A stretch of 64,000 nucleotides of DNA from positions 43,761,614-43,825,613 of the forward strand of contig OY735207.1 of the NCBI GenBank assembly GCA_963457665.1. The letters are read 5' to 3'. The notes beneath the pieces are model-generated. The model did not search any database, was not told the DNA's origin, and saw only the letters and a list, made by a program, of their open reading frames with translations. The stretch is from Thysanoteuthis rhombus (lineage: Eukaryota > Mollusca > Cephalopoda > Oegopsida > Thysanoteuthidae). Positions 427-24,440 of this stretch are shown piece by piece. The position numbers and the translations under genes are program-made. The number at the start of each line of letters is the position of its first letter. Position 1 is the first letter of the stretch.

Positions 427-558
427 TCACACTACAGTAGGATTGATTCTGTTGAGGTGAAACTGGTGGAGGTAATCTTTCTGTATCTGGAAGAGGTTAG
501 CATGAGATCGTTTTGATATGATTTGTGCCCAGGCATCAGCATCATCCATATTGTAGGT
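427..558 (-). CDS. PTPMT1: PTPMT1-A coding exon 4 (C-terminus)
   Basis: This exon has 43 codons plus TGA (429-427), starting after an acceptor ending CTACAG. It reads TYNMDDADAWAQIISKRSHA, then LFQIQKDYLHQFH. That parallels the family's C-terminal 'W..EEAV..I...R......Q...L..FH' helix pair, with the family's 'RSY' replaced by RSH. No AATAAA was found between the stop and the window edge on the minus strand, so the 3' UTR probably continues out of the window. Confidence 0.85.
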   Translation of the reverse strand, partial: TYNMDDADAWAQIISKRSHANLFQIQKDYLHQFHLNRINPTVV

Positions 559-3500
559 CTGTAGGAAACAAAAAACAATGAATATATTTCAACAGTTGAA
601 AACATTCACCCCACTAAATTGTGCATGTATATAAACACTATTACGAAAGAAGGAATGTATTTTCAGAGAAGTGTTGGGAAGAAGAAAGAATGTTGATTAG
701 AAGAAAATTATTTGATGAACCACTGAATTTAGGAGCTGTTATCAGAGCTGTCTAAAATTTTGATATGAGAGGCGGTCATTATTTCATAGGTTATGAATCT
801 TGATATTTTTTCAAATAACATTTCAGTGGGACAAATCTTCATCTTTCATCGGGTGTATGTATTCAATATTTTCAGTCTTTGGGTGTTAGTTTTTGAAATT
901 TTTTTTAAAAAACTGGAATTTAGTGAATGCTTTCATAATATTATTTTTTTGAAAAAGACAAATGTACATTTATTTTGGCTTATACTTGATTTTTTAATGC
1001 AGAAATAGAAAAATTTTATAATGCAAATCTATGAAATATAGTATTTAAATTTTCCAAAATATATTGCTCACATATCTGCATGAAAAATAAATATTGTATC
1101 TTTGTGCCAGTTTTCTCTCCAATTTTTCACACCCCTTTCTGTTCTGCTGAAGGAGAAAAGATGCTGTCTAAAATTCAAAGCAATACCTTCAACATCAAAA
1201 TTTAAAAAAAAATTTTTTTATTATTATTATCATTATTATGATTATGATGATGATGAAGAGCAGCAGCAGCAGCCTTTTAGCATCCATCATTGGGTATAGA
1301 CCTTCCCCAAGGTCTCTCTATCATGGTTGTCGGAGAGTCGATACTTTCTGAACTTGTCTAGTTTATCATGCCATCTTATATTTTGTTTCACATATCATCT
1401 CTGGGGTTCCACGTTGTGAGTCGTGATGTCCATCGGTTGTCTGCCATTCTTGCAACATAACCAGCCCATTGTCATTTGAGTTTTTTAATGGACTCTATGA
1501 TATCTTGGAGTCCTGTTTTTTCTCTGTGCTGTTTTGTGCAATTTAAAATCGCCACCTCCCCTATCTATGTCCCCAAGGGTATGTCTTTTCACCCCAAATT
1601 TTTCTATATGTGCATGTAAGTGGATTGAAATGGGTTTTTTTCCAAATGTTACAAAATTTTGACTTGTTAGGAGTTGAAACTCTTTTTTTCTCTTTAAATT
1701 TTGTAGAAATAGGACGAAATTCTTTTTTCTCAAAAGACTCAACAAATAAATGCATATTTTTGCTTTAGTTCATAATAATAGCTTAATTGATTTTTGTTCT
1801 AATATATACTTTTTGTAAAGAACGATTTCAGTATTTTCTAATCATATATATGTATTTTTAAAAAACTATTTTGAGATATTTTTACTGTGATGAAATACAT
1901 TAACGTTTACCTTCACCAATATGAATTTGGAAGTTATGTTATTGTTCTTGCAGATTTGTATGCTGTAAGGTTTGTTACAGTATGCGTTCCCATACTTGGT
2001 GGCTTGCTACTGCAATATGATTGCATATTTCAGGATGTTACTGTATATGTTTGAATATTCAAGAAAAATAGATTTATATTTTTTCCTACTATTTATTCTA
2101 ATAGTGTCTGAGCCAACGGCACTGAAATTTTATTTTTTTATAGTTTTCAATTGTTTTGGAGGGATGAATGAACATTGTTTTAACAACTCACCAATTCCAA
2201 TAGTCTTGTTTTAATTTGATGATCACTTGACCACCTGCTGCCAAAATGAATAACTGAGTATCCATGCAATATGCCTACTATGGTACTTTGAGTATGTACC
2301 AAATGCTTCATTTGTAAAATATAAGCTACAGAATTACAAATGGGGAAGTATTCAAGAGAAATGATCAGAAACATCTGACTGATACCATCACAGATAGATG
2401 CATGAAGCTAGCTGGACACATCTTATACATGCCAGAAAATTGCAAAGCTTTTGTGGCAATAAGGTGGGTTCTAGCATTGGGGAAGAGAAGAACAGGTAAA
2501 CAAAGAAAATACTGATGCTCATCATTCAACAAAATTTTTCAGAGAGTTGGAATAACCTCGGGGGAACATGCAAGATGTTGTAATGGATCGATCAAAATGG
2601 AGTCAAACAATTGCCTGATATGTCCCTCTTGCATGGATGGATATAAACTAACCAATCAGATGCCTCACATAGGATACAGTTTCATAGTAAGAGAACTTGG
2701 AGAATGAATGAATGTTTCAAGCGGATATTTTTGAGAAGGTTTCAAAAGGGAGTTATTGCTATCAGTGCTAGATTTACAAGGGGGCAAAAGGGGCAATTGC
2801 CCCAGAACCCCTCCATACAAAGATATGATAATTAAAGAATTAGTTTCTTTAATTAAAGAGTGAATTATTAATTAACTGCTTGGAATTCATTTCATAATGA
2901 TGGCTTCAATTGTTTGAAATGAATTATCAAAATTACTGCTTGTGATTTGGGTCTACAGTAATTGGAGTATAGGTTACAAAAATGAATGATTTGCCTGAAA
3001 ATTCACTTGGGGTTTTGCTGACATGTATTAACATTGGATATATAACTCTTTTAACCTTTCTATGTATGCATAACTTGTCGGTTCCACTTACATGCAATAA
3101 ACAGACTTTGATTATTTTCATAAAGAATATTTTAACGATGGTTTGGGAGTCAAAATGAATGCTGGATAAGGTCCTTGCTTCATTTTCTAGTATCTCCTCG
3201 ATTCTTTGTGATGTAATAGTGAGTGAGGTAGTTTAGCATAACATTACTACTGAGTCACAGGTTTCATTTTCACTGAGTGACTCACTCCTGTGGCCTTGTG
3301 CCAGATTAAGTCAAGTATAATACACAATCCCTGAGTGCCGTATAAGCAATATACATGCATGGATTAATAGAGTAGAGATGGCTTCTTGTGATATATATTC
3401 TTACAGACGACTGATGTAAAAGTTTGCTTGCATTTATAAGTTCTTTACCAAAAATACTAACTTGCGATTTGCCATGTATCTTAATTTCTGTGTATGAGAG

Positions 3501-6420
3501 ACCCAACAAACCTAAAGTGTCCTGGGCCACTCAGGGTCTAAATCCAGCCCTGATTGTTATGAAACCTTGAATTGCTTTTAAGGATTCTAATCTAACATCA
3601 ACATTTGCATCTGTTAAGAGTGAACACCACTGCAAGTCATTGCCAATGATTTCTCTCTTCAGGCTGCTCTTATATTAGACCATATTCTAAAGTTGGTTTA
3701 AAACGATAAATATTTCATTCGCAAAATCTAATATTGTGTATTAACATGTATGACATTTGACATTATAAAAATTTTGTATCAATAATGCTCATCAATGTAT
3801 CTCACTATTTGTTCATTATTAAGTATGCTAAAATGTATATGTACATAAGAATGGCTGGTAGTATAGTAATGACAGTAATTGTACACTTGAGACTACTTGA
3901 TGAAACATAAGTATTAAAATATTTGTAACCATGTTTTATTTCATATAAAGTGAAATTTGTTCAGATAGATAACATTAAAATATTCATTGATGATTAAGAT
4001 AAAATTAAGATTTTTTACAATTAATTCTGGATCATCAAAACTCTATTCAGGTTGTCGATCTATGGCGGCAAGTGATCAGCATAGATCAGAAATTAAGAAT
4101 AAGCTCAAGGTGAGATTCGAACTCATGTCCCTTTTTTGAGTATGAAAAAGCTTTGGAAAAAAATGTTTTTTTCATTATGAGGCACCCTTTAGTAATTATT
4201 ACATTGCAAACAAGTTTGTTTTTTGGCATTTAATAAATATTTGGTCGACACAGAGTACTATGGCCCAAGAGGAACCATCAACATACCTTCATCAAGTAAC
4301 AGGCAACCAGGGTTGCACTTCTGGTCCGTCCTGCTTTACAGTGGACATAGACACTGTGACCCTGATTTCTATGGTTTTCAATGAAGGATAAGGCTTTGTC
4401 TAGCTGAGAAGGTGAAGGGGTGCCCATGAAATCAAGAACAGCAAACCGTAAATAGTCAACACCAAGCTGTTTCCATTCCTGCCAACAGTAAGACCAAAGG
4501 TATCAAAACAACATAAATGAAAAGCAGAACTGAAAACAATATCAAATATTCTGAAAAGAATATTTTGAAATGTCAATATGGTTTGGTAGGCGTTATTGCA
4601 CTGGTCACAAAAGCCATGATAGTACGTGAAAATTAAATGATTTTTCTTGCTTCACAAAATCTGACTGGATTGAACTTTAGAAAGTCAAGGTAACTTGAAG
4701 TATATGTCATCAGAGTGCAGTTGTGGAATAAATCATGTTTGAGTTGTCTAAAAATGTTACTTTCTTGTGTAAAAGAATGAAACCTGGAAGCCTTGTTGTG
4801 GATCAATAGTTAAAAAGCTGGACTAGCAGATTGTAGCGGGTGTGATCTTGACTGGTTTCCCCCACCACATGTTGCCTTGTGCCAGACTAAGCTTGGTAAA
4901 TAAGCTATGAGTGCTTCATCATGGAGTAGTGGTTCACAAACTAGTCTTTCAGGTTATTACTACAGTACTGAGTTCAATCCTCACTGAGTCCACCACATGT
5001 GGACTTATGCCACTTAGAGTAAATATCAAGAATGAAAGCTTGTTCAAACAAATTTGAGGCATCAAAATAGTTTTAAAAATGCTTTCAGGTTGATATTTGA
5101 TTATCTGGAAAATAATATGGTTAATTAAGCTGGCTGTCTAACATTTCAGAAATTCATGTTAATCATGAACTATAAATACCTACCAATAATGTCTTCGTGC
5201 AATTGTGAGGGTTTTTTTCCCAAAGCATAGCAGAGTTTAACATCATTTTGTGAACCCCACCTGATGACTATTTGATTATAAAATAATAATTTGTTATTGT
5301 TTTTGAGAAGTGTTACATTTTTCCTATTTTACTGTGAAAATTCAATTTTTTGCTCAGATTCAAAAAAAACTAAACTAATTTAGGTTTGGAATTTCCCAAA
5401 GCCAATTAATTTTCTCCAAGATAAATCCAATAAAATAAGGCTGGTGTTATTTGTCTTTCATTTTCAATTATTTAAAATAAGAAATTACATAGATGAGTGC
5501 TCACTTCTTCAGTAGGTGTGAAATGTTCCACTTCAAATTTGTGGTTTGTGGAGACAACTGCTTGCACATTTTCCTTTTCTACAAGCTGCGGAAGAGAAAA
5601 GATATTTAATTGGAGACAAAATGAAACCTATTTACTGACATGCACTCAATTCATTTTCAATATTTTTCAGTTGAATCATCAGTAAGGTTCAAATCTTTCT
5701 AACTACTATTTCAACAAACAAGTTTTCAATCACAAACATACAAGCATTATCTTTTCAAAAAGTGAATTTTCAAATCTAACCCAGAAAACTAATGTAGACA
5801 TGTTAGATTGGATTAATAATCAGATTAGTGATACACTGTGAACTCTACAAAGATTTTTGTTATCATATATATAGCGTTAGTAACATCGTTTGGAGCAGAG
5901 ATTTCAATATCAGATTATACACATCGAATTTTTGAAAGCCCCACCCCACGAAGCCATGTAATCCTGGCAACCACTACCACTCTTCCAAGGAAGGGGAAGT
6001 TAGGGGCTTGAGGGCACAAAGTTATGTTTCCGAGTTGAGGTGATTTCAAAAGTGTTTATTCAGAAGATATCTTAGTGGTTACCCTGTTACCAGTGAGTAA
6101 TAATAAAATCTTTTTATATCGGAATGTCAAGTTGAAGTTACATTAAACAATTGTACGGTATCATTATCTTTTATTGACTATAAGGTTCCAACTTTCAACC
6201 TCTCCTTCCCACGGTAAGATGGCCTGATCCAAGGGGGTGCAAATACACCCCCTTAGCGGGTACCCATGCATGTACTAATGTTTTTCTTTGATGCTGTGAC
6301 TACTTTTAACCTGACTCCAGACAGCACAACAATTCAGTGAAGGAAAATAGTGTGATGCTAAAAAAACAAAAAATAAATCAAGTTGTGTGTTTGTTTTTTT
6401 ATTTTTTATTATTATTATTA

Positions 6421-6479
<59 letters not shown>

Positions 6480-8076
6480 AATAATAATAATAATAATTCT
6501 TTATGAGCATTTTCTTTCATCTTGATTTTTAGTTGCATTTTATCTCAACTTACTCAGGCCATCAGTCTATGGCATTGAGTAAACAACGCAGATTGGAGAT
6601 AAAAGCAACCAAAAATTAAGGAGAAACAAAATACTAGTCAAAAATTAATAATAAAATAATGATTGACAATCATCAGCATTAGCTTTTTAGAATCTGTCAT
6701 TAGACATAAATCTTCCCCAAATAGACCTTCCTCAAGATACGGCAGACCTCTCTATCATGGGTCTCATGGAGACAGTATTATCTGGATTTATCTAGCTCGT
6801 CACATCATCTTACTTTCTATTGGCCACAATTTTGCTTTTGATCTCAGAAGATGCAAATTATGAGTCATGTTGTCCTGGTTGTCTGACATTCTTGCGACAT
6901 GTCCAGCCCATTGCCATTAGAGTTTTCTAACTGTTTCTATATTTCGGACTCCTGTCTTTCCTTTGATATACTTTGCTGTCTTATGATCTCTCCATGTGAT
7001 GTTGAACATGATTCTCTCATGTGCATGTTGAATGGTTCTCAGTTTGAAGGTCAGTTACTTGATTAGGTTCTATGTTTCAGCTCCGTATATGACTAACGGT
7101 TGGATGTATTTGTTGTATACCCTTACTTTTTAGGACAAGTCAGATTTGTGTGTTCTTGAAAGTTGAGCCTGCTCTACAGAAAGCTTGCCAACCTAGTGTG
7201 ATTGTTAACTTTATTTATTTTTCTTTTGAGACTCACTGTCCTAGGTAGATATATGATCTACTTTTTCCAGCTCTATGTTTTTGATATTGATCGTTGTGTC
7301 TTTGTCCCCAACATGTTTGTCATACATGACATTTGTTTTGCTGAAGTTCATGTGGAGGCCAACTTTCTTGCTGTCTTCATTTAGTTTGTCTAACAATATT
7401 TGGAGACACTACCAATGTGAAAAAAATATCAAACATGGCACAGAGAGAGATCAAGGAAGGAAGAAAGGTATGTTTAAAGGTTTCTTGTAGCTTAGTCAGA
7501 AGAGCAGCTGCTTAAGTATGGTTAATCTAGCTTCCTTAAGGCAAAAGGAATGCAAGTTCAAGTCTCACTGAGAGATTATCCTTTATTTCCTCATTTTTGT
7601 TGTTTACTCATTCCTGTAGATTGACAACCTGAGCAAGTTGCGATAAAAAGCATTACGATGAATAAAAAGGCAGGCCAAAAATCATTGATAAAAATGATTG
7701 ACAATGCTTCTTCTTATACGAAAAAAAAAACAATAATGTTAGCTGTATCTCTCCAGCCACACAAATAACAACTACCTGATCAATGACTTGATAAGAGAAA
7801 TTTTGATGTCATGACAATTTTTTTTACTCTCAATTTATGGTCATTTAAAGTCTAAACAAAACTTGAGAAATAGGATGCAAATTTCTTCATATATGTACAC
7901 AAACACAGAATACTTACTTCTTTAGCTATCTGTCGCAGGGGTAGGGCACCAAACAATACTGTGTCATCGATGCGATGGTACCAGGGTCGTTTCCAGACAA
8001 GATGCACAACATAATTATATAATAGGGTGGGATAAAATGCAATCCGAGCAAATACGTAGGTAGCTGTTTTTGACAT
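427..8076 (-). CDS. PTPMT1: PTPMT1-like mitochondrial dual-specificity phosphatase, copy A (4 coding exons)
   Basis: Coding exons, in transcript order on the minus strand, are 8076-7918, 5585-5505, 4478-4287 and 558-427. Together they encode 187 aa ending in TGA; the human protein is about 200 aa. The N-terminus has the family's FYPTLLY segment, then WYHRID and GALPLR. The catalytic loop [14 protein letters not shown] gives the HCX5R signature with nucleophile Cys127 and Arg133. Asp96, in VLDF before the GTP, sits at the general-acid position. The family dephosphorylates phosphatidylglycerophosphate to phosphatidylglycerol on the matrix side of the inner mitochondrial membrane, a step toward cardiolipin. 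All introns are GT-AG and phase 0 (2332, 1026 and 3728 bp), and they carry LINE and SINE debris. A paralogue with the same exon lengths lies about 12.7 kb upstream in the direction of transcription. The family assignment is secure; separate activity of this copy is inferred from the intact active site. Confidence 0.93.
1215..1545 (-). mobile_element. RTE-like LINE 3' end, truncated
   Basis: This is the 3'-terminal piece of a LINE family seen five times in the window. It includes the TAGACCTTCCCCAAGG block and the motif complementary to 'cacaacgtgga ... catcacgactcac'. The element's 3' end abuts a (ATT/GAT)n run at 1218-1256, the usual simple-repeat tail. There is no open frame. It lies in PTPMT1-A intron 3. 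Confidence 0.7.
2375..2660 (+). mobile_element. LINE reverse-transcriptase C-terminal relic
   Basis: The forward translation reads CMKLAGHILYMPENC, then IRWVLALGKRRTGKQRK, a stop, and further on VGITSGEHARC and DRSKW-like remains. This fits the tail domain after the RT of many non-LTR elements (LGHVLRMP ... W.P.GKR.RG.P ... TW.EA...A.DR..W). It is decayed by stops and lies in PTPMT1-A intron 3. Confidence 0.6.
2764..3556. mobile_element. non-autonomous DNA element candidate with similar inverted ends
   Basis: The left end reads GTGCTAGATTTACAAGGGGG. The right end, reverse-complemented, reads GGGCTGGATTTAGACCC. The inside, around 2857-2990, resembles the interior of the 8.2-kb MITE (ACTGCTTGGAATTCATTT against ACTGCCTGTAATTCATTT). 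A lone right-type end (AATCCAGCCCTGAC) is at about 58783. It lies in PTPMT1-A intron 3. Confidence 0.45.
3225..3330 (+). repeat. SINE block fragment (CTTGTGCCAGA type)
   Basis: This contains CACTGAGTGACTCACTCCTG followed by TGGCCTTGTGCCAGATTAAG, a block that recurs at 4870, 4995, 26480 and 55675. It also recurs, reversed, at 42790, 42855 and 43475. Confidence 0.45.
4287..4478 (-). CDS. PTPMT1: PTPMT1-A coding exon 3 (catalytic)
   Basis: This exon has 64 codons between acceptor TTGGCAG and donor GTATGT (4286-4281). It runs from EWKQLGVDYLRF through VLDFMGTPSP to [14 protein letters not shown] and CYLMK, so it holds both the general-acid Asp and the HCX5R loop. It is 52/64 identical to copy B exon 3 by hand count, the best conserved part of the pair. 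Confidence 0.94.
4795..5035 (+). repeat. tandem pair of tRNA-derived SINE pieces
   Basis: Two consecutive units are seen. The first has a tRNA-like GATCAATAGTTAAAAAGCTG and the CCTTGTGCCAGACTAAGC block. The second has AGTAGTGGTTCACAAACTAG, a B-box-like GAGTTCAATCCTCACTGAG, and a decayed CTTATGCCACTTAG. They lie in PTPMT1-A intron 2. Confidence 0.55.
5505..5585 (-). CDS. PTPMT1: PTPMT1-A coding exon 2
   Basis: This exon has 27 codons between acceptor TTCCGCAG and donor GTGAGC (5504-5499). It encodes LVEKENVQAVVS and ends HFTPTEE, corresponding to the family's 'ENVRGVITMNEEYE' beta-strand region before the WPD-like loop. Confidence 0.9.
6406..6498. repeat. (TTA)n/(TAA)n microsatellite with strand switch
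   Basis: About 23 TTA-phase units are followed from 6476 by TAA-phase units, forming an inverted trinucleotide tract. It lies in PTPMT1-A intron 1. Confidence 0.95.
6673..7410 (-). mobile_element. RTE-like LINE fragment
   Basis: This is a longer decayed copy of the same LINE, running from the 3' terminus up into the RT C-terminal region (read on the minus strand: LDE-x-KESK..GLHMNFSKT-like and IFKNTQI-like remnants). Frameshifts interrupt it. It lies in PTPMT1-A intron 1. Confidence 0.7.
7484..7690 (+). repeat. tRNA-derived SINE
   Basis: The A-box-like GTAGCTTAGTCAGAAGAGCA is followed by the B-box-like GCAAGTTCAAGTCTCACTGA, a body, and a tail of GCGATAAAAAGCATTACGAT. The same family is at 22165. 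It lies in PTPMT1-A intron 1. Confidence 0.65.
7918..8076 (-). CDS. PTPMT1: PTPMT1-A coding exon 1
   Basis: This exon has 53 codons from ATG at 8076-8074, ending in ATAGCTAAAGAA before the donor GTAAGT (7917-7912). It carries the N-terminal hydrophobic segment FARIAFYPTLLYNY and the WYHRID block. The start was chosen because it is the first in-frame ATG, lies 53 nt after a strong acceptor, and aligns with copy B. Confidence 0.92.
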
Positions 8077-8129
8077 GGCTGATCACACCAGATTTTCTTG
8101 GGTTTAATATTTATCAATAACCACAGGAA
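8077..8129 (-). other. PTPMT1: 5' UTR segment of PTPMT1-A after a UTR intron
   Basis: A strong splice acceptor (TTTTATTTACAG on the minus strand) ends at 8130, 53 nt before the ATG. The equivalent segment in copy B is 55 nt, which supports a real 5'-UTR intron. The upstream non-coding exon and promoter were not located. Confidence 0.6.
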
Positions 8130-8199
8130 CTGTAAATAAAATAAATGTAATTTATGTATAAAAAGTATTGTGTACAGATTTGGGAACAATTCAAGTAGT

Positions 8200-8581
8200 G
8201 TGGTCCCTCCTGCTGACCTATGAGTATTGTTTTATTTTTACATCTCATACTTCAATGCCTGTGGTCCCAAATTACCTAACTTTACTCCAACCCCAATGTT
8301 GTGCAACAGGAATGTCCGCAAGGTTTTGACCATATAGTGTTGCACATCTCTCAGTGGTTTGTTACCCTTTCAATTGAGTCAAGATAAATTAATAATTACT
8401 GCCTGTAATTCATTTTGGGATTCACCTTCATTATAATGCCTTAAATTGTTTGGAAATAAATCAAACTACTTATTACAACTTGGCATTGAATATCATTGTA
8501 ACACTTTGAATTGGGCTGTCTGTCATTGAAGTATGGGATGCAAAAATAAAGAAACATTCCTAGCTCTTTTGGAGGGACCAA
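8200..8581. mobile_element. foldback MITE (long inverted repeats)
   Basis: The left arm starts GTGGTCCCTCCTGC and runs through TATTTTTACATCTCATACTT. The right arm, reverse-complemented, starts TTGGTCCCTCC and runs through AGAGCTAGG and TATTTTTGCATCCCATACTT. The arms are about 58 nt and imperfect, and there is no coding capacity. A sister copy is at 54003-54190. Confidence 0.75.
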
Positions 8582-9195
8582 ACTATAGATTTGCTAAGGT
8601 CCAGTAGATATTCACTTTAGTTAGTTTATTCTAGTGAATTGTTTGCAAGACCAGCTTGCTGACCAATACTCTATGGCAGGCACCTTTCACTATTGTCCAT
8701 TATTGATCAAATTCTGAGTATAATTTCTATAATAATAGAAAATTAATAGAAACAGCAACATTTGAAATATACAAGTCTGGTTAGTCACTCAGGAGAAACC
8801 CTCACATGACCTTGTTGGGGGTGATCAATCAAAATATTTGAAAAAAAGGGTGATTGATGAATAAATCACTTCTTTTTTTTATGGTGAGATCACTGGAAAT
8901 ATTTGAATTTTTTAAAAACAAGCATGAACGCAAACTAAGAGAACAACTCAACATAAACTCATTGAAAAAAAAGTATTTGGGGCAGGAAATCTTCAAAAAA
9001 CAAAAAAATATTTTTTTCCTTGACATAATACAGAGTATATACTTGAATATTCAGCCCTCTAGCTCCATTGGTACAGACTATGCACGTAACACATACATAA
9101 GTAGCCAGCCAGCCAGTTAGACTCTCTTGAATACTGAAGAAACCCGTGTTGAAAGTTTTGGTGACATTCTTTGTTGACATTTTCTAATAAGGTGT

Positions 9196-9300
9196 TTCAA
9201 CATGGAGTAATGGTTAACAAGCTAGTGTCAGAGCATAACAAGTGTAGTGAGTTGGATCTTCACTTGTGGCCTAGTATCTAATTAAACTTTGTGCATGCAT
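9196..9300 (+). repeat. decayed tRNA-derived SINE
   Basis: ATGGAGTAATGGTTAACAAG (A-box-like) is followed by GAGTTGGATCTTCACTTGTGG and CCTAGTATCTAATTAAAC, a diverged CCTTGTGCCAGATTAAG. It parallels the 4.9-kb unit. Confidence 0.45.
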
Positions 9301-9367
9301 GTCCCTGAAGATCAAACTATCAACTTTTTAGTAATGTATATGCTGGATTAGCTTGTTAACCATTGCT

Positions 9368-9784
9368 CTATGACTGCTACTCTGGATATCGGGTCTGAAG
9401 CGAAGGTTTCAATCCTGCCTCGTGCTACTGGATGGGATAATGGATTGTCTATAGCCACACTGAAGAGTTGTAATACAATGAAACAGCTGTCTGTGGATGA
9501 CACAATGATTAATGCTCCTCTATTCAGGGTTGACCACTCTTCAAGTGAGGTAACTCGTTCATTGTAAGCTTATGCAATGCTCTTCCATAGGAATAGAGCA
9601 CTCTGGTGGATGGAGAATTTAAGCTAAAATAAATATATCGCTTAAATCCAGCCTTACTGACTGTCCAGTTCCATGGCTCAGCAGGTAGAATACTGGTCTC
9701 CGGGTCTGAAGCAAAGGTTTCAATCCTGCCTCATGGAACTGGACGGAAGAGTTGTAATACAACAAAACAGCTGTCTGTGGATGA

Positions 9785-9817
<33 letters not shown>

Positions 9818-10032
9818 GTTCCATATGCTCTTTCAACTCTGGAATAGAGCACTATGGCATAAGAAAAAAAAAAACCTTAAGTTCAGCCTTTCTGACTGTC
9901 CAGTTCTGCGTAGAGGTAAAATGCCAGCTTCTGGGTCTGAAGCTAAGGTTTCGATCCTACCGCAGGGTACTGGATGGGATAATGGATAGTCTATTGTACT
10001 ACAACAAAACAGCTGTCTGTGGATGATTTAAT

Positions 10033-10062
<30 letters not shown>
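9368..10062 (+). repeat. three-unit tRNA-related SINE array ending in (AT)n
   Basis: The block GGGTCTGAAGCNAAGGTTTC, with B-box-like GGTTTCAATCC, occurs at 9391, 9702 and 9933. Each time it is followed by TACTGGATGGGATAATGG or ACTGGACGG and by ACAGCTGTCTGTGGATGA. Units 2 and 3 end in (TA)n runs (9788-9817 and 10035-10062). A reverse-orientation copy is in ETFB intron 4. Confidence 0.7.
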
Positions 10063-10067
<5 letters not shown>

Positions 10068-10071
10068 TATA

Positions 10072-10395
10072 GTCTAGAAAGCTTCACAGCTTTAAACAAT
10101 TAGCATTAAAAAAAATTTTCAAAATGTTTTTGTGCCACTTCAGTCACTTATTTCCCAATATCTGTCAATGCAATTTATATAATTTTCTTCAGTTTTTTTT
10201 CTCTCTGTTTTATTATACTTTGTTATTGTGGTACAATGGATAAATTTTCTTTGATAGGGTCATCAGTTGTTTACAATGTAACCATTTTGGAGATTTTCAA
10301 AACAAAACATGACTCCCCAGCAGTGTTGATCAAACACCACTGCTCTTTCAGCTATGATTTTGATGTATAGATTATCTCATACATGTAATTTGTTA
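10072..10395. repeat. interspersed repeat, copy 1
   Basis: This matches 50643-50925 over its length: TCTAGAAAGCTTCACAGCTT, TTATTTCCCAATATCTGT, TTGATCAAACACCAC and CTATGATTTT. Both copies adjoin a (TA)n run. There is no coding capacity or clear terminal repeat. Confidence 0.6.
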
Positions 10396-10759: not shown

Positions 10760-10775
10760 GTTTCATTCATTTCTC

Positions 10776-10835
<60 letters not shown>

Positions 10836-10947: not shown

Positions 10948-10955
10948 CATATGTA

Positions 10956-11042: not shown

Positions 11043-11045
<3 letters not shown>

Positions 11046-12665: not shown

Positions 12666-15400
12666 GGACCAACCAATCGACCAACTGACTGACTGACCAA
12701 CTAACTGACCAAAAAGTGTCTAATAGAGATGCATGGATGTATCTGAAAAATGACAAGTTCATTCATTAAAAGATGAAAAAGAAAAATTACTTACATGCGA
12801 CGTATTTTTGACATTATTTTTAAAAAATCATGTGAAGACCAGTAAAAGTGAAAATTGGTCTTTGCTCCAATGGTGATTGATGGATCTTTAATTTGCTGCG
12901 TAACTTTTTCTTAATCTGTTGTCAGTTATTGCTGCTTCAATTAAATCCTCTGGCAATAATCCGATTAAGTAAAACAAGCCAGGTTGAAGTGTTGAGTCTG
13001 AAGTTACAACACAGTAGAATAACTAATCATAAATTTGGAGACGCAATAATCCAAATCAATTAGTGTGTAATGTTAAAATGAATCTTAATATTCCAACTTT
13101 GGGAAAAGAAAATGAAATATTCAAATTTTACCTTTGAGGCCAAATTGATAAAACATGTTTTTTAACACACACACACGCTCACACAAAACTCAACAACAAT
13201 GATACACAAACCCACTAAGCACGAACCCACTATTTGAAGGGAGTTGAGTAGTAGATTGGTGGCTAAGAGGTCAGCAGTTATCCCATTAGTCAAGTGCAAG
13301 ACAATTGTGGAGCTGGTAAGAAATAACCTGTGAGTAAATGAAGCTAGATGTAATTAAAAAAATCAGATTTCTACTCTTTCTTCCCGAAAGAATTATAGAA
13401 TCCTTGTGGTTGAATGTTGCGTTGGTATTTCTTTCAGCATGTGTCTACTTCCATTCTAGTTTATGAATATAATCTGCTTTCAATTCAATAGCATTTGTAA
13501 AGTCCTGCTGTTGCGAAAAAGACGTCAGAAGCTTGCGTAAAATGTGTTCGAGTTGCATCCGATTCTGATAAATCACTACTCGTGTTGACATGTACAAGGT
13601 TACAGCTCATCTAGTAAAGACTCATTCATCGATTGAATGGTAGGCACACGAGAGAAAAAAAATCCATATTTTGAAATCAACTAGTTTTATCTATTAAGCT
13701 GAAAGAGCTCTTCGCTAGGTCCACACATACCAAACCCAGGGTTCTATTGATTTACAAAATTGCACTTTAACAGTATTGTGTAATAACGGTTGACATTAAA
13801 AGTTTGTTCGGTTTATTGACCCTTTAACTGCTGCAGTAGCAGCTCGATTGTCAAGTTCTAAATGCTGCGGTAACTTTTATTGTACAGAGTGGTACAAAAT
13901 AAGCTGAACAGTTTGTTTTCTCTGTAAACCATAGACTCCTCCACTGAAAGTTACAGACAGAGAATCCTAGAAACAGGCAGAAAAAGTCGTCCATAGTGTG
14001 GCTGAGGGAAATTTCCATCATTAGCAGTTGAGCAATAGTTACCTGTAATTAATGGATGAAGTAAAAATAAGACATATTTTTTTTTACATTAACTTTGAAT
14101 CAACAACATATTCACCATTATTATTCATTTTCGTTACTATTATCTTCATCTTAACTGTTGTTGCTTTTTATTGCAACTTAACCCTGGCTTCAAACTGCCC
14201 GGTCCTGGGAGATGAGGGTTGACATGGGCAAGGGACTGCAGTTTCTAGATGTTATGAACACAACCCTTCATCCAGACATCGTATTGTGAATATCAAAAGA
14301 TTATTCTGGTTGAGCTGACTATGCAGTGGGAGGAGGGTTGTGAAGAGGCCAACAAGAGAAAGGCCATAGAATACTAGCCTCTGATCTAGGAGGACCAGAA
14401 CAAAGGATGGCAAGCATGATTTTTCCCCATGGAGGTTGGTTGTAGAGGCTTTCTAGTGAAATCAGTATCTGGACCAAAAGAGACAAAAGCAAGCATCTCG
14501 TAGGATGGAGGAAGAAGCAGAACCTGTCTCGTGCTGGATATTGAGCAGGTGAGTAGATGAAAATTGAAAGCCAGGACTAGATGAGCAGTGATCTGGCCAC
14601 CAATGCTGAGCCGATAACTGGAGGATGTTGTGGTTTAAGGGTCAAAACACCCAAGGAAGGTTGTGTACCACCTGATGACATCTGCCTCCAAAACAAAAAA
14701 AAACAACAAACAAACACAGTTACCCAATAAGGTAAACGTGTCCATTTTTATTTTTAATAAGGTAACCAGAAAACACAACCTAACTGGAGTATTCTATCAG
14801 TAAATTAAAAGGGTAGAAGTAGTGTCTCTGTTAAGTTGTAGGTTAGCTGTGAATGATAGCAGTTAGCAAGTGAAACTAGGGATGTTGGTATCAATGAAAA
14901 AGGGAAAACTTGCTGTAACAAAAGAATATCAAAAAGAGATATTCATTGAACTAATAAAAAAACACTCGCATTACAAGGAAAGCTTAATTTGAGAGAAAGT
15001 TCTTGATATAACTCAATCATCATGCCAATGCAAATGAAGTCAGGAAAGTAGGAATGTTAATAGTTTGAATGTGTCTGTGTAGAAAGTCTTTGTGAGTCGT
15101 ATATAAGCATGTCAACAGAAGATGATTTTGTAAGTTCTTACTTGCTTTTGTGGTGACATGTATTTATTGGTGTTGTACATGAAAAGGTGAATGCATGTGT
15201 GTGTGAGACAACCATCTTGACCACATGTGTATGGTGAGATAACTTCTGGCTGTCTGCCTTATTTGGCCAGGTCAACTGATTATATGTTAAACAGGTGGTT
15301 AAGAGAAATTATGTTGCGAGTTTTTGTCTTACATTAGATCATGTGATGTGATTATAACTATGTCTGTGTGATTTTTCTAGGTAATTCTGTAGAGCCTCCT
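12666..15400. other. intergenic stretch between the PTPMT1 copies
   Basis: No exon was recognised. The 13500-13620 part has a few CpGs and one GACGTCA (13531-13537), which could belong to a promoter of PTPMT1-A, but nothing ties them together. The 14.16-14.70 kb block is described separately. Confidence 0.35.
14160..14700. other. GC-richer block of unknown nature
   Basis: Base composition is visibly richer in G and C than the flanks, from about 14170 (ACCCTGGCTTCAAACTGCCC) to 14690 (GATGACATCTGCCTCC), ending at an A-rich tail (14690-14715). No long open frame was seen. The abrupt composition and A-rich end suggest a retroposed repeat in plus orientation. Confidence 0.35.
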
Positions 15401-15481
15401 TGATGAGTGATATTGCCAAGATATGGGAAAATGCTTGGAGCCTGTTTGTTGACAGCTATGTTTCCTGTCAAGCACATAGTT

Positions 15482-16330
15482 CATCATCATCATCAGTCTT
15501 TTAATATTGGTCGTTGGATAGAGACCTTCCCCAGGATTCACCACATTTCTCTATCGTCGTGGAGCCAGTATTTTCTAAATTTGTCTAGTTCATCTCTTTT
15601 TCTGTTGGCCCCTGGTTTTGCATGTGATCTCTCGGGATCCATGTTGTGAGTCGTGATGTCCATCAGTTATGTGCCATTCTTGCAAAATGACCAGTCCATT
15701 GCCATTTGAGTTTTCTAATAGATTCTATGATGTCTCAGACTCCCATTTTCTTCGTTATATACTGTGCTGTCTTGTGGTCTCTCCATGTGAGGTTGAGCAT
15801 TTCTCTCACATGTGCGTTGCATGCCTCTCAGTTCACGGGTCTGTCTCTTGGTTGGGTTCCATGTTTCAGCTTCATAAGTGACTATCAGAAGGATACATTG
15901 GTTGTATACTCTTCTTTTTAGGATTATTGGGATTGTCTTATTTTTGAAGGTTGAGCTTGCTCGGCTAAAGGGTTGCCATTCTAGGGTTATTCTTCTCTTG
16001 ATTTCTTCTTCTTTTGTGGGTTTCATAGAGATTCGTTGTCCTAGATAGATATAGTGTTCGACTTTCCCCAGTTTTGCATCTTCGATTTTGACAGTCATGT
16101 CCTTATTATTGATGTAATTGTTGCACATGACTTTCGTTTTACTGAAGTTCATGTGCAGGCCGACTTCTTTGCTTTCTTTGTTCAGTTCATCCAGCACCAC
16201 ATATTTAGAGGACTCCAATCCCGCTATATACACTGCATTCTTTGGATGAAGACCAGCTTCTGATATGATTAGTGACAGTTGTGGTTCATTTCCCTTGCAC
16301 CGTAATATCTTGCATTCTATATTTTCCACC
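15482..16330 (-). mobile_element. RTE-like LINE fragment with a 204-codon reverse-transcriptase tail ORF
   Basis: The minus-strand frame 16329-15715 is open for 204 codons. It reads VVLDELNKESKEVGLHMNFS, KTKVMCNN, YIYLGQRISM, EEEIKRRITLEWQPFSRASS, then FKNKTIPIILKRRVYNQCI and ETWNPTKRQTRELRGMQR. This is the part of the reverse transcriptase after the YxDD motif plus the connection region; the YxDD itself, the fingers and the endonuclease are absent. The 3' end at about 15485 is a (GAT)n-like tail. It is 5'-truncated and dead, but it is the best preserved copy here. Confidence 0.85.
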
Positions 16331-16334
16331 TTAT

Positions 16335-18860
16335 ATCACTTGGACAAAAAACCTCAAGATATAAATACATTCCAGAGTTTGTTTTCTTGCTTATAAAAAG
16401 CCAAAAGCCAACAGACATACTCAAAATGATGCAAATAATTTTCAATACTTGATTTAGATATTTTGAATAAGTTGGCTATCCCTTGGGTTGTATAATATTG
16501 ACATTTCTCCAGTAAATATGTTTGTTTAATTGTTATTAACCTCAAGTGGTCTACTTGATTGAAGAGCATCATTCAACGGGAAATCTCCAATTTTGACACA
16601 TTTGATCATTCACACGACCATTACCTTCTCTATAAATTGCACACGTATTTTTTGAGTAGCATTGATACCTTTCTTAAAGTAAAAAAGTATATGCCAAAAA
16701 TGCTGCCTCCTTTCTAAACAAAACATGATAATTTTGACAATTTTCAATGCACACTGATTTGACAGCTGTCACAACGACAATCAAAAGCAATCTTTTTGAA
16801 TGGAGTTAGTTAAAACTAAATTAATTATGTTTTTCAATAACAGGAGAAAAAAAATTTCATAATATTTACACTTTTGAATGGTTGTTAATTATAAATTTTT
16901 CATACACTAAAATAACTAGTATCATCTTTAATTTTCATGAACTTTTTAAATGACAGTATTTCTTGTGAAAATATAAATGTTAAACTGTTACTTCTAGTCT
17001 TATGTTGTGACTCTATTTTATTTCCAGTTAAAATTAAGTATGGAAATAAATAGGAATTAATATACAGCTCTGAATACAAAACCTATAACTAGCCACATAT
17101 TCACTGACATCACTTCCTTTCAGCTTCAGTCTATTTAAGTCCTCACTTCAGTTAATCACTCTTTCACTGCACACAATATTACATCCAAAAGGAAATTTCC
17201 TTTTTCTTCTCTCCAAGACCTTTTTTTCTGTCACCAAAAGAACACACCATACAAGCTGAGCACTTTTTGTAGTTAGAAAGGATTCTTTTAGGGAGAACTG
17301 TTGAGGCTCTAATTTACATTACATTACCAACATTTTCCTGATTGTTTTTTCTCTACAAGACAAAACATATTCCATTTCATTCATCCACCTCATACTTTCT
17401 TTATGGTGGTAAATTTTGCCAAGTCACTTTGTGCCTGTTAATTCCTCTATGAATCAAAATGTTCTCATTACACTGTTAATCCTTCAGATTTGTTCTTTTT
17501 GTTTGTTTCTGACCAGTCCAACCGTGTACTAATCTTGATTTGTGTTACATTTTCAGGAGCTGAGGCAACAAAAAAAAGCAAGCTGAAATTGTCTATGGCT
17601 GAATAAATGTTGGTTATGATAAGAACTTTCCAAATTTGTTATATTTCTGGATTAATCAATCAAAAAATGCAGCAGATAATTCTATGCTTTCATTATTCAA
17701 ACATAAATTCTGAGCCAAAGAGGATCGCTGCACAGGAACATTTGGATCCCTTCATGGCCAGGGAATAAACAGTATAATGTCTAGTTCCAGGACGTCATTC
17801 ACCCAGGCTGCATCTCCCCATTGCATTAAAAGGGGTAGGGCCAGGGTCAATCCCTGATACATGTCAAAAGACAAGTGCTGGGGGGACTTGATAATTTCTG
17901 TTCTTACTCACATGTACTTGTGAGGTTCCCTGTGCTAAACTCAACCTTGTGTCTAATTCTGTTATCGTGGGTCCATCTTCATTTGAGGAGATACTCCTAG
18001 TACTTCAACTGGCCAGAGTCATTCAAAGAATTTCTACTAAAATACACCATCAGTCAGTCTTAACAGAAAGATTCAACTGCAGCTGATCACATGATCAACT
18101 TTTAAAATACTTGCTATATATATATGTGGCTACTGAATTGTTGTCTAGACTAATGTCTACCTCACCCAAGGTTCTTACTGCTGCTATGATTTATACACAC
18201 ACACACACACACACACATAAGTATCCTATGAAAGACATAGAATTTTCCTTCCAGAATAATCATTTATTACTATGGAACAGCTGATAATGTTTCTTCTTAT
18301 TCTGACTGTTAATCAGACAGTGATTTAAGACAATTCATAGCTGATAATGGAGGCAGTTAGAGTAATGATTGTCCTAGAATGACTGATGAGGTATCTCAAG
18401 AGAAATTTCTCTGTCTTACGTCTTCTTATTCTGGAATTGAATCAGATACTGATGTCAATGAAAGTGATAAATGGCCTGGAACAGTTGAAAAGGTATTTTG
18501 ATGATGTGACATCATACAAGTAAATCTTTAATTCAAGTGGTTAATCAATAAATAAGTTGTGAAGTAACCTTTGACATTGAAGTCAGTACGGTGATAAGAA
18601 ACGGTAGAAGTGTTACATCCTTTATAGGTTAATAAAGATGAACAAGCAAATCTATCACTATAGAGACAGCGAATGTTTATTCATTGGTTTGCTTGTTTGC
18701 ATGTGTCTCCCAAATGACTGAATCCTAGGAACTGCAGATCTGTCTATAAGGGTAATGTGACCCCAGGAATAACATAGGATATGTGGTGCTAAGCTCAAAG
18801 ATCCTTAGATCAAAACCATTATTCCAAACTAATTTGTAAGCTTCTATTTAAAGACTCATT
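16335..18860. other. intergenic stretch, no gene seen
   Basis: AT-rich sequence. At about 17740-18020 there is a less AT-rich part with a B-box-like GGGTCAATCCCTGATAC, perhaps an old SINE. Nothing else was recognised. Confidence 0.4.
18194..18219. repeat. (CA)n microsatellite
   Basis: A pure CA run of about 12 units follows TTATA. Confidence 0.9.
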
Positions 18861-18869
18861 CATTTCTAC

Positions 18870-18960
18870 AGCGATCAGTGGAAGCACCAATGGTCAAGTG
18901 GTTGGATGCGCAGACAATGAAATCAGTAGACCAAGTTCAAATTCTGGCAGAAAAATGAAT
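18870..18960 (+). repeat. tRNA-derived SINE head
   Basis: CAATGGTCAAGTGGTTGGAT (A-box-like) is followed about 40 nt later by CAAGTTCAAATTCTGGC (B-box-like). No intact tRNA fold is made, so this is a SINE head and not a tRNA gene. Confidence 0.5.
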
Positions 18961-19433
18961 TGTTTTTCTTTTAATTTTCTACGCTTTTGTTTTTCTTGGA
19001 AAGAAATGAAAATAGCCACTTTTATTGCTAAACTTGACCTGAAGTAGCCATTTTATAGCTAGGTGTATTTTAAACCCATCAGAGCAAGGTTAACCTGTTA
19101 ATTTTGTAAATGTACAAGTTCACTCATGCTGTTAAAAAAGAACGTAATAATTAAGTAATTTGGCAATTGCATTGTACTTATAAAATATCAAAAACATTAT
19201 GTTGTGCAGCAACTTCTTGTCTATGTTCAATACTTCCTGAATATTAAACTTATCTTAAGGTAAAATTAAGTGAAGATACAATTTATCAAGTTCAATGTAA
19301 CATAAAATTCTATTTTTACTAAGTTACATCACTGGTAATGTAAGTATGAGAGATGATAAATGCAAATGCCAATTATTACATGTATGTACTTATTAGAATT
19401 AGATAATCCTTTGTGTATTTCTAATATAAATTT

Positions 19434-19767
19434 TTGTGGGTTCAATGTTTCAGCTCCATAAGTGACTATTGGGAGGATACATTGGTTGTATACCCTTCTT
19501 TTTAGGATAAGTAGGATCTTCTTGTTTTTGAAAGTTGAACTTGCTCTGCCGAAGGCTTGACATTCTAGAGTGATTCTTCGTTTGATTTCCTCTTTTGAGG
19601 GTCTCATGGAGATTCGTTGTCTTAAGTAGGATGTAATGGTCTACTTTGTCCAGTTCAGTGTTTTTGATCTTAATCTTCATGTTCCTATTTCCAATGTGAT
19701 TGTTGCACTTGAGCTTTGTCTTGCTAAAATTCATGTGTAGGCCAACTTTCTTGCTTTCTTCATATAA
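19434..19767 (-). mobile_element. RTE-like LINE internal fragment
   Basis: Minus-strand remnants include HMNFSKTKLKCNNHIGN, DKVDHYILL, EIKRRITLECQAFGRASS and RRVYNQCILPIVTYGAET. The 3' terminus is missing, so this is a broken internal piece with a frameshift between the two halves. Confidence 0.8.
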
Positions 19768-20069
19768 AAAAAAAAATTATTAAGAAATGGATATATATGG
19801 ACAAATAGCTTGGGTTTGTGGAAAAATATTTTTTTTCCTTTAGTTCATCATAGCAATAGGACCTTAGATAGCAGGGCCTGTGTACAGAATAACCATCCAG
19901 TCTGAGCAATTAAATTTTGAGGTGAAGTTTGACTTTCTATACAGAGATGCAAGATTTAAACTCATATTGGTCCAAATATTGAGGATCTAGCAGTAAAGTA
20001 TCAAGTACAAGGGCTACACTGAATAAGTATAATGTCATTCCAGTTTCATTGAGAATTTTTTCTTTGTTC

Positions 20070-20170
20070 GGGAAGATGATTACTTCAAAAAAATAACCAA
20101 AAATGTATGGGACAATGGGAAGATGATTACTTCAAAAAAATAACCAAAAATGTATGGGACAATGGGAAGA
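20070..20170 (+). repeat. perfect 47-bp tandem duplication
   Basis: Unit 20070-20116, beginning GGGAAGATGATTACTTC, is repeated exactly at 20117-20163. The first 7 bases of a third unit follow. It lies 3' of PTPMT1-B. Confidence 0.9.
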
Positions 20171-20307
20171 AAGAAGATTAAGAAACCCTGTTTTAAACAC
20201 GTTTCCTTCTGTTTTTTTCATTCCTTGAATATGCAAAAAAATTTTGTTTGTTTTCCACTCTTATTCAAAGAGGAAACCAGAAAGCTGAATGAAAACTACC
20301 AATACAG

Positions 20308-20333
20308 TTTATTTTTTAGAAAATAACTTTATT
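20308..20333 (-). terminator. candidate polyadenylation signals for PTPMT1-B
   Basis: Two AATAAA hexamers on the minus strand (20313-20308 and 20333-20328) lie about 480-500 nt past the copy B stop. Either could end the transcript. Confidence 0.4.
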
Positions 20334-20519
20334 TTAATTTTCTTCATCTTGTTGATTTTTTATCACTTCTGTCTAGGTTCAATAACTTCCAACCATCAGA
20401 ATAAGTAGTGTGCGGTGGGAACAAAGTAGGTTTCAAAGAGATTTGAACAAGCATCTTATATCCTGAGAGCTTATCTTTCGTGGACTGTGTCTTGACAAAT
20501 TTGGCTACAAAAGTTTATG

Positions 20520-20700
20520 GTTAGATAGGGCCTGAACCTCTTCATACTGACACATTTCTTTTGGTATACAAGTTCAAACCTCGTCAAAAGCTACTCTTTT
20601 ATTCTGATTTTCATTGCTTGCTTTAGCATTCAGAGAGTATTTGACCCAGAAATGTTGTGATAAAAAGCTACGATTAGATGAAGAAAACTAGTAAAAAGAT
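20520..20700 (+). repeat. tRNA-derived SINE, third copy
   Basis: The B-box-like TACAAGTTCAAACCTCGTC is followed by TTATTCTGATTTTCATTGCT and the family tail GTGATAAAAAGCTACGATTA. The A box is lost. It lies 3' of PTPMT1-B. Confidence 0.55.
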
Positions 20701-20811
20701 TAACGCGGAAAATAGACAGGCTCAGAATTCAATTAAAATTACTTAAAGTATAAATTACTACACTTTGTACAGAGTTTTTTTAAAAAAATGTTTTATATAA
20801 ATAGAGTCTGT

Positions 20812-20943
20812 TCATCCTGCCTCAGCACGGAATCCATTGAGATGAAAATTTCGGATAAAATCCTTTTGTGGTTGAAAAAGCCGTGCATGTGGACGCTTGG
20901 AAGTGATGTGATTCCAGGCAGTTTGATCATCCCATTTGTAAGT
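20812..20943 (-). CDS. PTPMT1: PTPMT1-B coding exon 4 (C-terminus)
   Basis: This exon has 43 codons plus TGA after acceptor TTTCCAG. It reads [20 protein letters not shown], then [16 protein letters not shown]. The pattern is shared with copy A, with about half the residues changed. Confidence 0.88.
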   Translation of the reverse strand, partial: TYKWDDQTAWNHITSKRPHARLFQPQKDFIRNFHLNGFRAEAG

Positions 20944-23900
20944 CTGGAAAATAAACAATGAAGAAATGATATAAAATCAATCAAAGAGTTCTGCTATAAT
21001 CATATGCTTATCCTTGTATGTCTGTACTGCTAAAAGTTGAAAAAATACCGTCTCATGATGTATCTTTTATCTTTTCCCGTCTCCCTCCCTAACTATCATT
21101 GCAATGTAATGAATAAGGGTAATAATGAAGTGGGGGGGGGATTATGCTTGAAAAGGAGCTCAATCGTCACTATAAGTATTAACCATTCATGACTCCTCCC
21201 TCACAAGTCTGAAGCTTAAAAATCAAGTTATACTTATTGTAGATAACAGGGATATAACAGATAGCAAAAGTAATCAATAATAATATGAGATATATAGGTT
21301 TTATTTGCCTTTGCATGTTATTATAGTTAATATAAATGGATTCCATAAGTAATAAATTACTTGAGCAAAATTATATACTTTATTTGCAGATATACATTTG
21401 TGAGAATTAGTGATAATACTTGAATTAACAACCATGGGTCCAGCTAGTTTTAAATGATTTTAAAAATGAATTTGCTGTAGCACTGACACTTCTATGGCCA
21501 TTACAGTGTGGTATGTGTCAGTTAGACGATAGAGTATAAGTTGCAACTTAAAGAGAGATTTTGGGATACAGTGAAACAGAGGCCAAACAATTGATTAGAA
21601 ATCTGATATATATAGGGGGGGGGCAGGGACATCATATTGTACAATAGAACTGCCACTAGAGCTTTGTCAATCCAAATTGTCAGAGACCAATGTTTTTGGT
21701 TATGTGTAAAACACAGAATCATGAATGTACTATACATAAATAAATATGGTAGCATTACTGCAAGGAACTTTCATTATGATAAAGAATGACTTACTTTTAT
21801 CAAGTAACAGGCAACCAGGGTGGCACTTCTGGTCCGTCCTGCTTTACAATGAACATACACACTGTGATCCTGATTTTTATGCTTTTCAATGAAAGACAAA
21901 GCCTCGTCTAGCTGATTAGGTGAAGGGGTGCCGAGAAAGTCAAGGACCTTCAAGCGAAGACAATCCACACCAAGTGCTTCCCACTCCTGAACATCAGAAA
22001 AGGTTAAAAAACAAATTTAAATGTTAGAAAGAATGAAAGGGTATTTTAGAGAAAAAAAAATCAAGTCTCCATAAAAACAATAACAAATACTGCTTTGAGC
22101 TACTCAGAAAAAGGAAAGGTCAGGTTTAAGGGTTATTTTGATCATCTGCCAGCCATAGAAGTTCTTGTAGCTCAAGTGACAAAGCACCTGGTATGGATAA
22201 CCAGGCTTCCTTGAGGTAAAAGAGATGTGAGTTTGAGTCTCACTGAGAGCTTATCCTATATTTTGGATCTGTACTGTTTACTCATGACCATAGACCAAAC
22301 ACCAGAATAGTTGTGATGAGAAGCAAATAAATTAAGATGAAAGAAAACGTTAGTCATAATCACAAATTTTGTTTGGAAAATTCAACTCCTTTATGTTCCT
22401 GATGTTACTACCATGTTTTGGCCAATTCATTTGTCAGCCCTCATCAGATGTAGAATTGTTAAAAAAGAGGAAAAAAAACCCTAGTTTTCTTTTGAGTTTT
22501 TGATCATTCTAAGCAGAAATAAAGGGTATTTTTTTTTTTTACATACCTCTGAATTCTATACATCAATAATTATGGCACTTTGAAAAAAAATATGAAAATC
22601 GTTATCATTAATTACCATATAATGATAAAATGATTGTACTCTTTATGTCCTCTGCATATATGAAATAAATTAATATATTTCAAGACATGGATTTCCAAGT
22701 TATTATTATTATTTTGCAGTGTATAGGATGCAGCCTGTTGGGTTATTAGTAATACACTGCATATATTTATTCTAAAGTTGCCTGGATATTCAGACTCAAG
22801 TGATTCAGAGATCCTAAGCCTGACCTTCATTGCGTAGAATGAAAAGTTTAATAGAGGGTCAGATTTTGAAGAAGAAAAAAATGTATCTCATATACCACAA
22901 AATACGGTATTTCAAGTGAAATTGAAGTGGTTCTTTATAGCTTCATTCCACCTTATCGATTGGTGTGACATACAGGGCAAGCATAGAGTCTATAATTCTT
23001 CTCGAATTATGTTGTGGCATTACATAGACCAATTAATAGGAACTCATTTTTTTTTCTGCACAGGTGGTGCTGCAATCACAAATATCAAGATGGCATCTAT
23101 ATGTTCTAAATTAGAGAAAGACTTTATACTCACCCTATAATTTATACACATTGATAATTCATTAATTCATATGCAAATGATACACATTATTTATTGACAG
23201 ATTGCATTGAAAAATTATCGTGCACTTTATGTCCTCTATATATACAAAATTGATACAGATTTTCAAGTTATTTAAGAGAAATCAAAAGAGTTTCACAATA
23301 CCTCATCAGTCGGTGTGAAATGCTTCAACTCATGTGGCTGGTTGGCAGAAAGCACAGCTTTAACATTTTCTTTTTCCACCAACTGGAACAAAATAAGAAT
23401 GATTATTATACCGTTTGACGAATTCATAATCAAGTGAACAAAAGTCTTATTAATTAGTTCAACTGTAATATTATGCAGAATTAAAAGTGCATATAATAGA
23501 AAAATATCATACATATTGCATTCAACACTTGGCTGCATATAGTAATTCAAATATAGTGTATGCATAAAAATATGGGCCAATTTTGAAACAAGCAAACATT
23601 TTGCTCGGTATTGTTCATCATTCAATATGGTATTGATTTTTGATGAGACACAAATACCAGAATGAAAATTTGGTCAAGAAAATTCAAAATGGTGGATTTT
23701 GAGATCTGGCTCTGTAGACCAAAATTTTGATAACTCAAAGTATAGACATGTTATATATCATCAGGAAGCTCTTTTAAAGCTGATTAATATTCACGTAAGG
23801 ACTATGGTCATAAAATCAACAGAATTTGCTTTAGAGGCATTGGGGGGGAGGGAAATGCCTTATATGCAGTCAAATATGGTAATAACCTGAAGTATCTTTT

Positions 23901-24440
23901 TAATGGAAAATCATTTGCAAGGTTTTTAATCGTAAATAAATTTTAATGTAGAAAATAATTCAATATGCATGTCATAGTAAATATCAGCAATGTCTTTATG
24001 TAGTGATTCATTTGTATGACCTTTCTATGATAAATTATTGTGTAATTCTGAAGAAAAATATCTGCAATGTTTAAGTTAATAACTTGCTGATAGATAGACA
24101 AAGACACATGAAGAGAGACAAATCTATATCCAATTTGGATGGTTGGTTATGCCATTTGAGGGGCTACAGTGATTTGATAGAGGAAGAAAAGAAAAAAGAA
24201 AATAAGGAAAAGGGGAAAAAGAAAGAAATAAGAAAAGTCACACTGATCTCATTTGAACATTGACACAGATCTGGTCCTTACCTCTTTGGCAACACGTCTG
24301 AATGGGAGTGCACCAAGGATGACAGTCTCATCTATTCGATCATACCAGTTCCGGCTAGACAGATGGCTCATGGCATAGTTGTAAAAGAGACTAGGGTAGA
24401 AGGCTAAACGAGCGAATATAACGCTTCCTGTTCCAGGCAT
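20812..24440 (-). CDS. PTPMT1: PTPMT1-like mitochondrial dual-specificity phosphatase, copy B (4 coding exons)
   Basis: Coding exons, in transcript order, are 24440-24282, 23382-23302, 21986-21795 and 20943-20812. Their lengths (159, 81, 192, 132 nt) equal those of copy A, and the product is again 187 aa. Key blocks are [23 protein letters not shown] and GALPFR near the N-terminus, then VLDFLGTP with the putative general acid Asp96. The catalytic [11 protein letters not shown] has Cys127 and Arg133. The expected role is phosphatidylglycerophosphate phosphatase of the mitochondrial inner membrane. Introns are shorter than in copy A (899, 1315 and 851 bp), and all are phase 0. By hand alignment the paralogues match at about 121/187 residues, highest in exon 3 and lowest in exon 4 and around residues 24-31. 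Two AATAAA motifs lie about 480-500 nt downstream of the stop. Confidence 0.94.
21795..21986 (-). CDS. PTPMT1: PTPMT1-B coding exon 3 (catalytic)
   Basis: This exon has 64 codons between acceptor TGTTCAG and donor GTAAGT (21794-21789). It holds [10 protein letters not shown] and [14 protein letters not shown], which make up the whole catalytic core. Confidence 0.94.
22165..22345 (+). repeat. tRNA-derived SINE
   Basis: GTAGCTCAAGTGACAAAGCA (A box), GTGAGTTTGAGTCTCACTGA (B box), GAGCTTATCCTATATTTTGG and the tail GTGATGAGAAGC match the 7.5-kb copy block by block. It lies in PTPMT1-B intron 2. Confidence 0.65.
23302..23382 (-). CDS. PTPMT1: PTPMT1-B coding exon 2
   Basis: This exon has 27 codons after acceptor [20 protein letters not shown], ending HFTPTDE. 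The donor GTATTG is weaker than usual. It is placed by homology to copy A. Confidence 0.9.
24282..24440 (-). CDS. PTPMT1: PTPMT1-B coding exon 1
   Basis: This exon has 53 codons from ATG (24440-24438) to GTTGCCAAAGAG, followed by donor GTAAGG. It carries the hydrophobic N-terminal segment and WYDRID. The start is equivalent to that of copy A. Confidence 0.92.

Follow-up and report, generated by a model that had tools for sequence, protein, structure and literature searches.

An old tandem pair of PTPMT1-like phosphatase genes in Thysanoteuthis rhombus, with probable local gene conversion in the catalytic exon

PTPMT1 dephosphorylates phosphatidylglycerophosphate at the mitochondrial inner membrane, a step usually served by one enzyme encoded by a single-copy gene. 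The PTPMT1 family is defined by its EEYE loop, which we take to be part of the active site. The structural references used here are the PDB chains 3RGO and 3RGQ (title, "Protein-tyrosine phosphatase mitochondrial 1"), which are presumably from mouse. Local gene conversion between tandem duplicates is a known general phenomenon. In literature listings and the beginnings of abstracts, we found nothing that joined PTPMT1 with EEYE, with cephalopods, or with gene conversion. In the same sources, the only match for PTPMT1 and octopus concerned a Wolfram syndrome protein, the matches listed for PTPMT1 and tandem duplication dealt with leukaemia or blood-cell metabolism, none of those listed for gene duplication and mollusc involved PTPMT1, and EEYE appeared in none of the matches listed for PTPMT1, cardiolipin, and crystal structure.

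Two four-exon genes in the same orientation

The minus strand of the window, by which we mean the whole 64,000-nucleotide stretch of DNA analyzed, carries two four-exon genes in the same orientation, copy A (8076-427) and, upstream of it, copy B (24440-20812) (Table 1). The end of the copy B coding sequence (20812) lies ∼12.7 kb from the copy A start codon (8076), and the two genes are adjacent as judged from a partial scan of this interval for other genes. Exon lengths are alike (159/81/192/132 nt), intron positions and phases are equal, each of the six introns has GT-AG ends and phase 0, and each copy encodes 187 aa without an internal stop. Reading the exons thus confirmed the earlier note on this DNA, which had described two complete PTPMT1 genes of equal exon lengths and 187 aa that keep the catalytic Cys, Arg, and Asp. 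A tandem duplication arising at the DNA level would be expected to conserve exon architecture in this way. A tblastn search of the whole window with both proteins recovered all eight exons and, at E up to 10, no third copy or fragment; the nonexon matches all had an E of at least 0.21. Possible 3' splice sites (a pyrimidine-rich run plus CAG, picked out by eye) lie on the minus strand at ∼8129 for A and ∼24495 for B, 53 and 55 bases, respectively, before the start codons. As such sites precede both ATGs, they suggest that A and B have a conserved 5' UTR intron in common.

Table 1. Coordinates in the window of the exons of both copies and of the putative converted stretch
Feature	Position	Strand	Basis or remark
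Copy A exon 1, codons 1-53	7918..8076	-	ATG, open frame, GT donor
Copy A exon 2, codons 54-80	5505..5585	-	Read from sequence
Copy A exon 3, catalytic, codons 81-144, D96 C127 R133	4287..4478	-	Sequence and 3RGO alignment
Copy A exon 4, including stop	427..558	-	Read from sequence
Copy B exon 1, codons 1-53	24282..24440	-	Read from sequence
Copy B exon 2, codons 54-80	23302..23382	-	Read from sequence
Copy B exon 3, catalytic, codons 81-144, D96 C127 R133	21795..21986	-	Sequence and 3RGO alignment
Copy B exon 4, including stop	20812..20943	-	Read from sequence
Probable gene-conversion tract, copy A, codons 96-142	4293..4433	-	pS 0.31 vs 0.74; bounds approximate, by eye
Matching stretch, copy B, codons 96-142	21801..21941	-	pS; bounds approximate, by eye

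The window has other features besides the pair. On the plus strand at 40517-45433, pieces of three open frames match the Pfam family ETF (PF01012) in profile order, with E values of 3.4e-08, 1.8e-07, and 0.00057, the third falling below the curated cutoff; an electron transfer flavoprotein gene, which we guess to be that of the beta subunit, probably has exons here. Within 1-26000, the part covered for repeats, diverged fragments at 1385-1519, 6939-7383, 15615-16335, and 19437-19766 apparently belong to one dispersed element and are 68 to 85% alike. A 206-codon open frame on the minus strand (15715-16335) resembles a non-LTR retrotransposon remnant by eye, and another on the minus strand (38918-39175) resembles, likewise by eye, a piece of mariner-type transposase; neither has a Pfam match at 0.001. 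Short dispersed repeats at 9391-9994 and at 7516-7588 and 22191-22263, which by eye contain tRNA-promoter-like boxes (GGTTTCAATCCTG; GTTCAAGTCTC), are possibly SINEs. Searches of the window for tRNA genes (ARAGORN) and for Rfam families at gathering scores gave no matches.

Relationship to PTPMT1 and absence of most of EEYE

In phmmer searches of PDB chains, the PTPMT1 chains 3rgo_A and 3rgq_A ranked first for both copies, and the matches to 3rgo_A (E = 3.4e-37 for A and 3e-34 for B) exclude chance. At E up to 0.001, the search with copy A returned 62 sequences, the next relative after PTPMT1 being ShufPTP at 1.6e-11; that with copy B extended to E up to 1e-20 only and gave two matches, both PTPMT1. 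Among eight Pfam families, DSPc was the best for A and B alike. Both copies align without gaps to 3RGO/3RGQ over 148 residues and share with 3RGO the VYVHCKAGR(S/T)RSAT loop, whose Cys-X5-Arg part reads HCKAGR(S/T)RSAT as in PTPMT1, and the WY-x-RID-x-TV-x-x-GALP motif. Both copies keep C127 and R133, and also D96, which aligns to the Asp of 3RGO that we take to be the general acid. Unlike 3RGO, the squid sequences come from two tandem genes, and identity is partial: A equals 3RGO at 64 of the 148 aligned positions and B at 60, while A equals B at 106. By homology, A and B most likely dephosphorylate phosphatidylglycerophosphate at the mitochondrial inner membrane.

A bacterial PTPMT1-like phosphatase from a Pirellulaceae MAG has the same core (identical to A at 56/169 positions and to B at 59/169). 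It resembles A and B also in the N-terminal segment (AQLLFVPTLAWN like ARIAFYPTLLYN), downstream of which 3RGO starts, but is shorter after the loop and elsewhere, with 8 gap positions per alignment. Where 3RGO reads NEEYE, copy A has NHKFE and copy B NQPHE, so that only the N and the last E are kept and both copies are without the first three residues of EEYE. ShufPTP has VEEYE and the Pirellulaceae homologue CLEY at the same place, and on these three comparisons the change looks derived in A and B. As EEYE is largely missing, we filed the pair as PTPMT1-like.

The copies themselves are identical at 121/187 residues (64.7%), with 29/53, 18/27, 52/64, and 22/43 in exons 1 to 4, so the hand counts of the earlier note (65% overall, 81% in the catalytic exon, and 50 to 67% elsewhere) were correct. 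The strong differences it placed at residues 24-31 and in the C-terminal exon are likewise real: by eye on the alignment, the copies agree at 1/8 of the former residues and at 0/7 of the last seven. To compare the DNA, we ran blastn with 1-8500 against 20001-25500 at E up to 1e-3 and obtained five matches, of which two are exons 2 and 3 and the remaining three join noncorresponding places. One of these three, 7482-7611 with 22162-22285, is in the same orientation and was also classed as a dispersed direct repeat; the other two are in opposite orientation, and all three fall within 22162-22347 on the B side. Divergence of exons 1 and 4 is too great for detection by blastn, and the introns are otherwise unlike. 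Outside exon 3, silent sites have reached or nearly reached saturation (see below), and the introns can be aligned at repeats only, which marks the duplication as old; the view that an old tandem duplication left two apparently intact copies is thus supported. At 51/148 positions, A and B carry the same residue and 3RGO another, which would fit a duplication that followed the divergence from vertebrates but does not prove it, since this number includes changes on the 3RGO branch and any that conversion may have made. A scan of genome contigs with the 3RGO, A, and B alignment and two peptide patterns matched 8 stretches, of which 2 were confirmed; as these are one full-length bacterial homologue and one fragment covering query residues 90-146 only, the scan does not date the pair.

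Pairwise dN/dS is ∼0.18 for the whole gene, a value that uses a dS of 1.39 mixing regions of low and of near-saturated silent divergence, and 0.20 for exon 3. The dN/dS check suggested earlier for each branch was carried out in pairwise form, in which the ratio is well below 1. Against 3RGO, 5 of the 148 positions carry A-only changes and 9 carry B-only changes, too few to call an acceleration in either copy, and neither copy stands out as released from constraint. These values leave the proposal of divided roles for the two copies unsupported, although such roles could lie in expression.

Three other accounts of the pair have to be weighed. An assembly artefact, in which two haplotypes were joined head to tail, has a negligible probability: the haplotig mis-join named in the earlier note as fatal to its claim was not borne out and is ruled out by a protein divergence of 35% and by introns that have in common repeats alone, at noncorresponding places. 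That one of the two has recently become a pseudogene, or is never expressed, is most improbable. Copy B has one AATAAA/ATTAAA signal 209 bases past its stop, and none is found in the 426 bases past the copy A stop, where the window ends, which would suit this account; yet pairwise dN/dS is low, and the frames and the six splice-site pairs are intact despite near-saturated silent sites outside exon 3. It is somewhat less improbable, but still unlikely, that the pair forms a paralogue family distinct from a main cardiolipin-pathway PTPMT1 located elsewhere in the genome, as the lack of most of EEYE might indicate. Against this account, the remaining core aligns to 3RGO without gaps, and the N-terminal segment is like that of the Pirellulaceae homologue.

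Silent-site similarity within exon 3

Silent differences were counted by the Nei-Gojobori method with a self-written script on two sequences only, A and B. The pS values of exons 1 to 4 were 0.78, 0.76, 0.42, and 0.68 (pooled, 0.77 in exons 1 and 2 and 0.74 outside exon 3), and exons 1 and 2 exceeded the Jukes-Cantor limit. Exon 3 was below the rest with a Fisher p of 0.0005 (on rounded counts) and a codon permutation p of 0.00085. Our dS values of 0.62 for exon 3 and 1.74 for exon 4 compare with 0.68 and 2.18 from Biopython. GC3 of exon 3 was 0.44 in both copies, and that of the other exons was 0.30 to 0.47. As silent sites are also unusually alike in exon 3, the 81% protein identity of the catalytic exon is not a clean mark of protein constraint.

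Inside exon 3, pS was 0.71 in codons 81-95 versus 0.31 in codons 96-142, with bounds set by eye once the data had been inspected. A scan of all codons for intervals of at least 15 gave codons 99-157 as the best interval, matched by 0/400 permutations. The ends of the tract are blurred, since this interval overshoots by 13 codons into exon 4, beyond an intron, and since the scan script capped silent differences at each codon's silent sites. Where A and B encode the same residue (Met and Trp excluded), the second half of exon 3 has identical codons at 23/28 positions and the first half at 12/23, with 6/27, 8/18, and 9/21 in exons 1, 2, and 4, respectively. The best count in 25 of these codons had a permutation p of 0.003 and that in 20 a p of 0.016; their longest identical run was not significant (permutation p of 0.16). 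Fourfold sites were identical at 9/14 in the first half of exon 3, 8/11 in the second half, and 3/15, 2/8, and 2/7 in exons 1, 2, and 4. The contrast within exon 3 is thus weaker at fourfold sites; the exon taken whole is clearly set apart from the others, and its inner bounds are soft. The blastn match of exon 3 stops within ∼35 bases of the exon on the intron 2 side and at the exon edge on the other, so no homogenized intron backs conversion.

With two sequences alone compared, the case for conversion is the clustering of silent sites, and on that footing local gene conversion of ∼140 bp is the simplest and best reading. In full, and with a probability of roughly 0.7, we propose that one PTPMT1-type gene was duplicated in tandem at the DNA level into two complete genes in the same orientation, and that purifying selection has kept both as dual-specificity-type phosphatases, the activity of both being presumed. 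Later, a nonreciprocal conversion probably rehomogenized ∼140 bp of exon 3 containing the Asp and the Cys-X5-Arg loop, which would make this stretch younger than the remainder of the genes.

The main rival dispenses with conversion and holds that the silent sites of exon 3 are themselves constrained, by exonic splicing signals, codon choice, or RNA structure, in addition to strong constraint on the protein. We judge it the less probable account, although it is far from negligible. Exon 3 is indeed the best conserved exon between the A and B proteins (52/64), and against 3RGO its 31/64 identities in each copy exceed those of exon 2 (9/27) and exon 4 (10/35 in A and 8/35 in B), though not those of the aligned part of exon 1 (14/22 in A and 12/22 in B); that only two sequences were compared and that the longest-run test fails also suit the rival. 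However, exon 2, with two-thirds of its residues alike between the copies, is nevertheless saturated at silent sites. The drop in pS is moreover local within exon 3, with the reservation that its bounds were set by eye.

Comparison with known tandem duplicates

In kind, the pair is an ordinary gene duplication; what it adds most usefully is that silent sites in the catalytic exon are locally similar, which alters the reading of that exon's conservation. Given the probable conversion, a whole-gene tree or dN/dS test would combine two histories and might date the duplication wrongly; therefore, exon 3 should be analyzed apart. If both copies work, this animal lineage would have two enzymes for a step usually served by one. 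An unlikely extension is that the catalytic exon stays common to both copies through conversion as the terminal exons diverge, with EEYE mostly lost, so that one module might serve two enzymes that differ in their membrane or partner preferences. Compared with tandem duplicates known to undergo local gene conversion, the squid pair differs in that the event is deduced here from two sequences only. It is like them in having near-saturated flanking exons around a short, more similar stretch.
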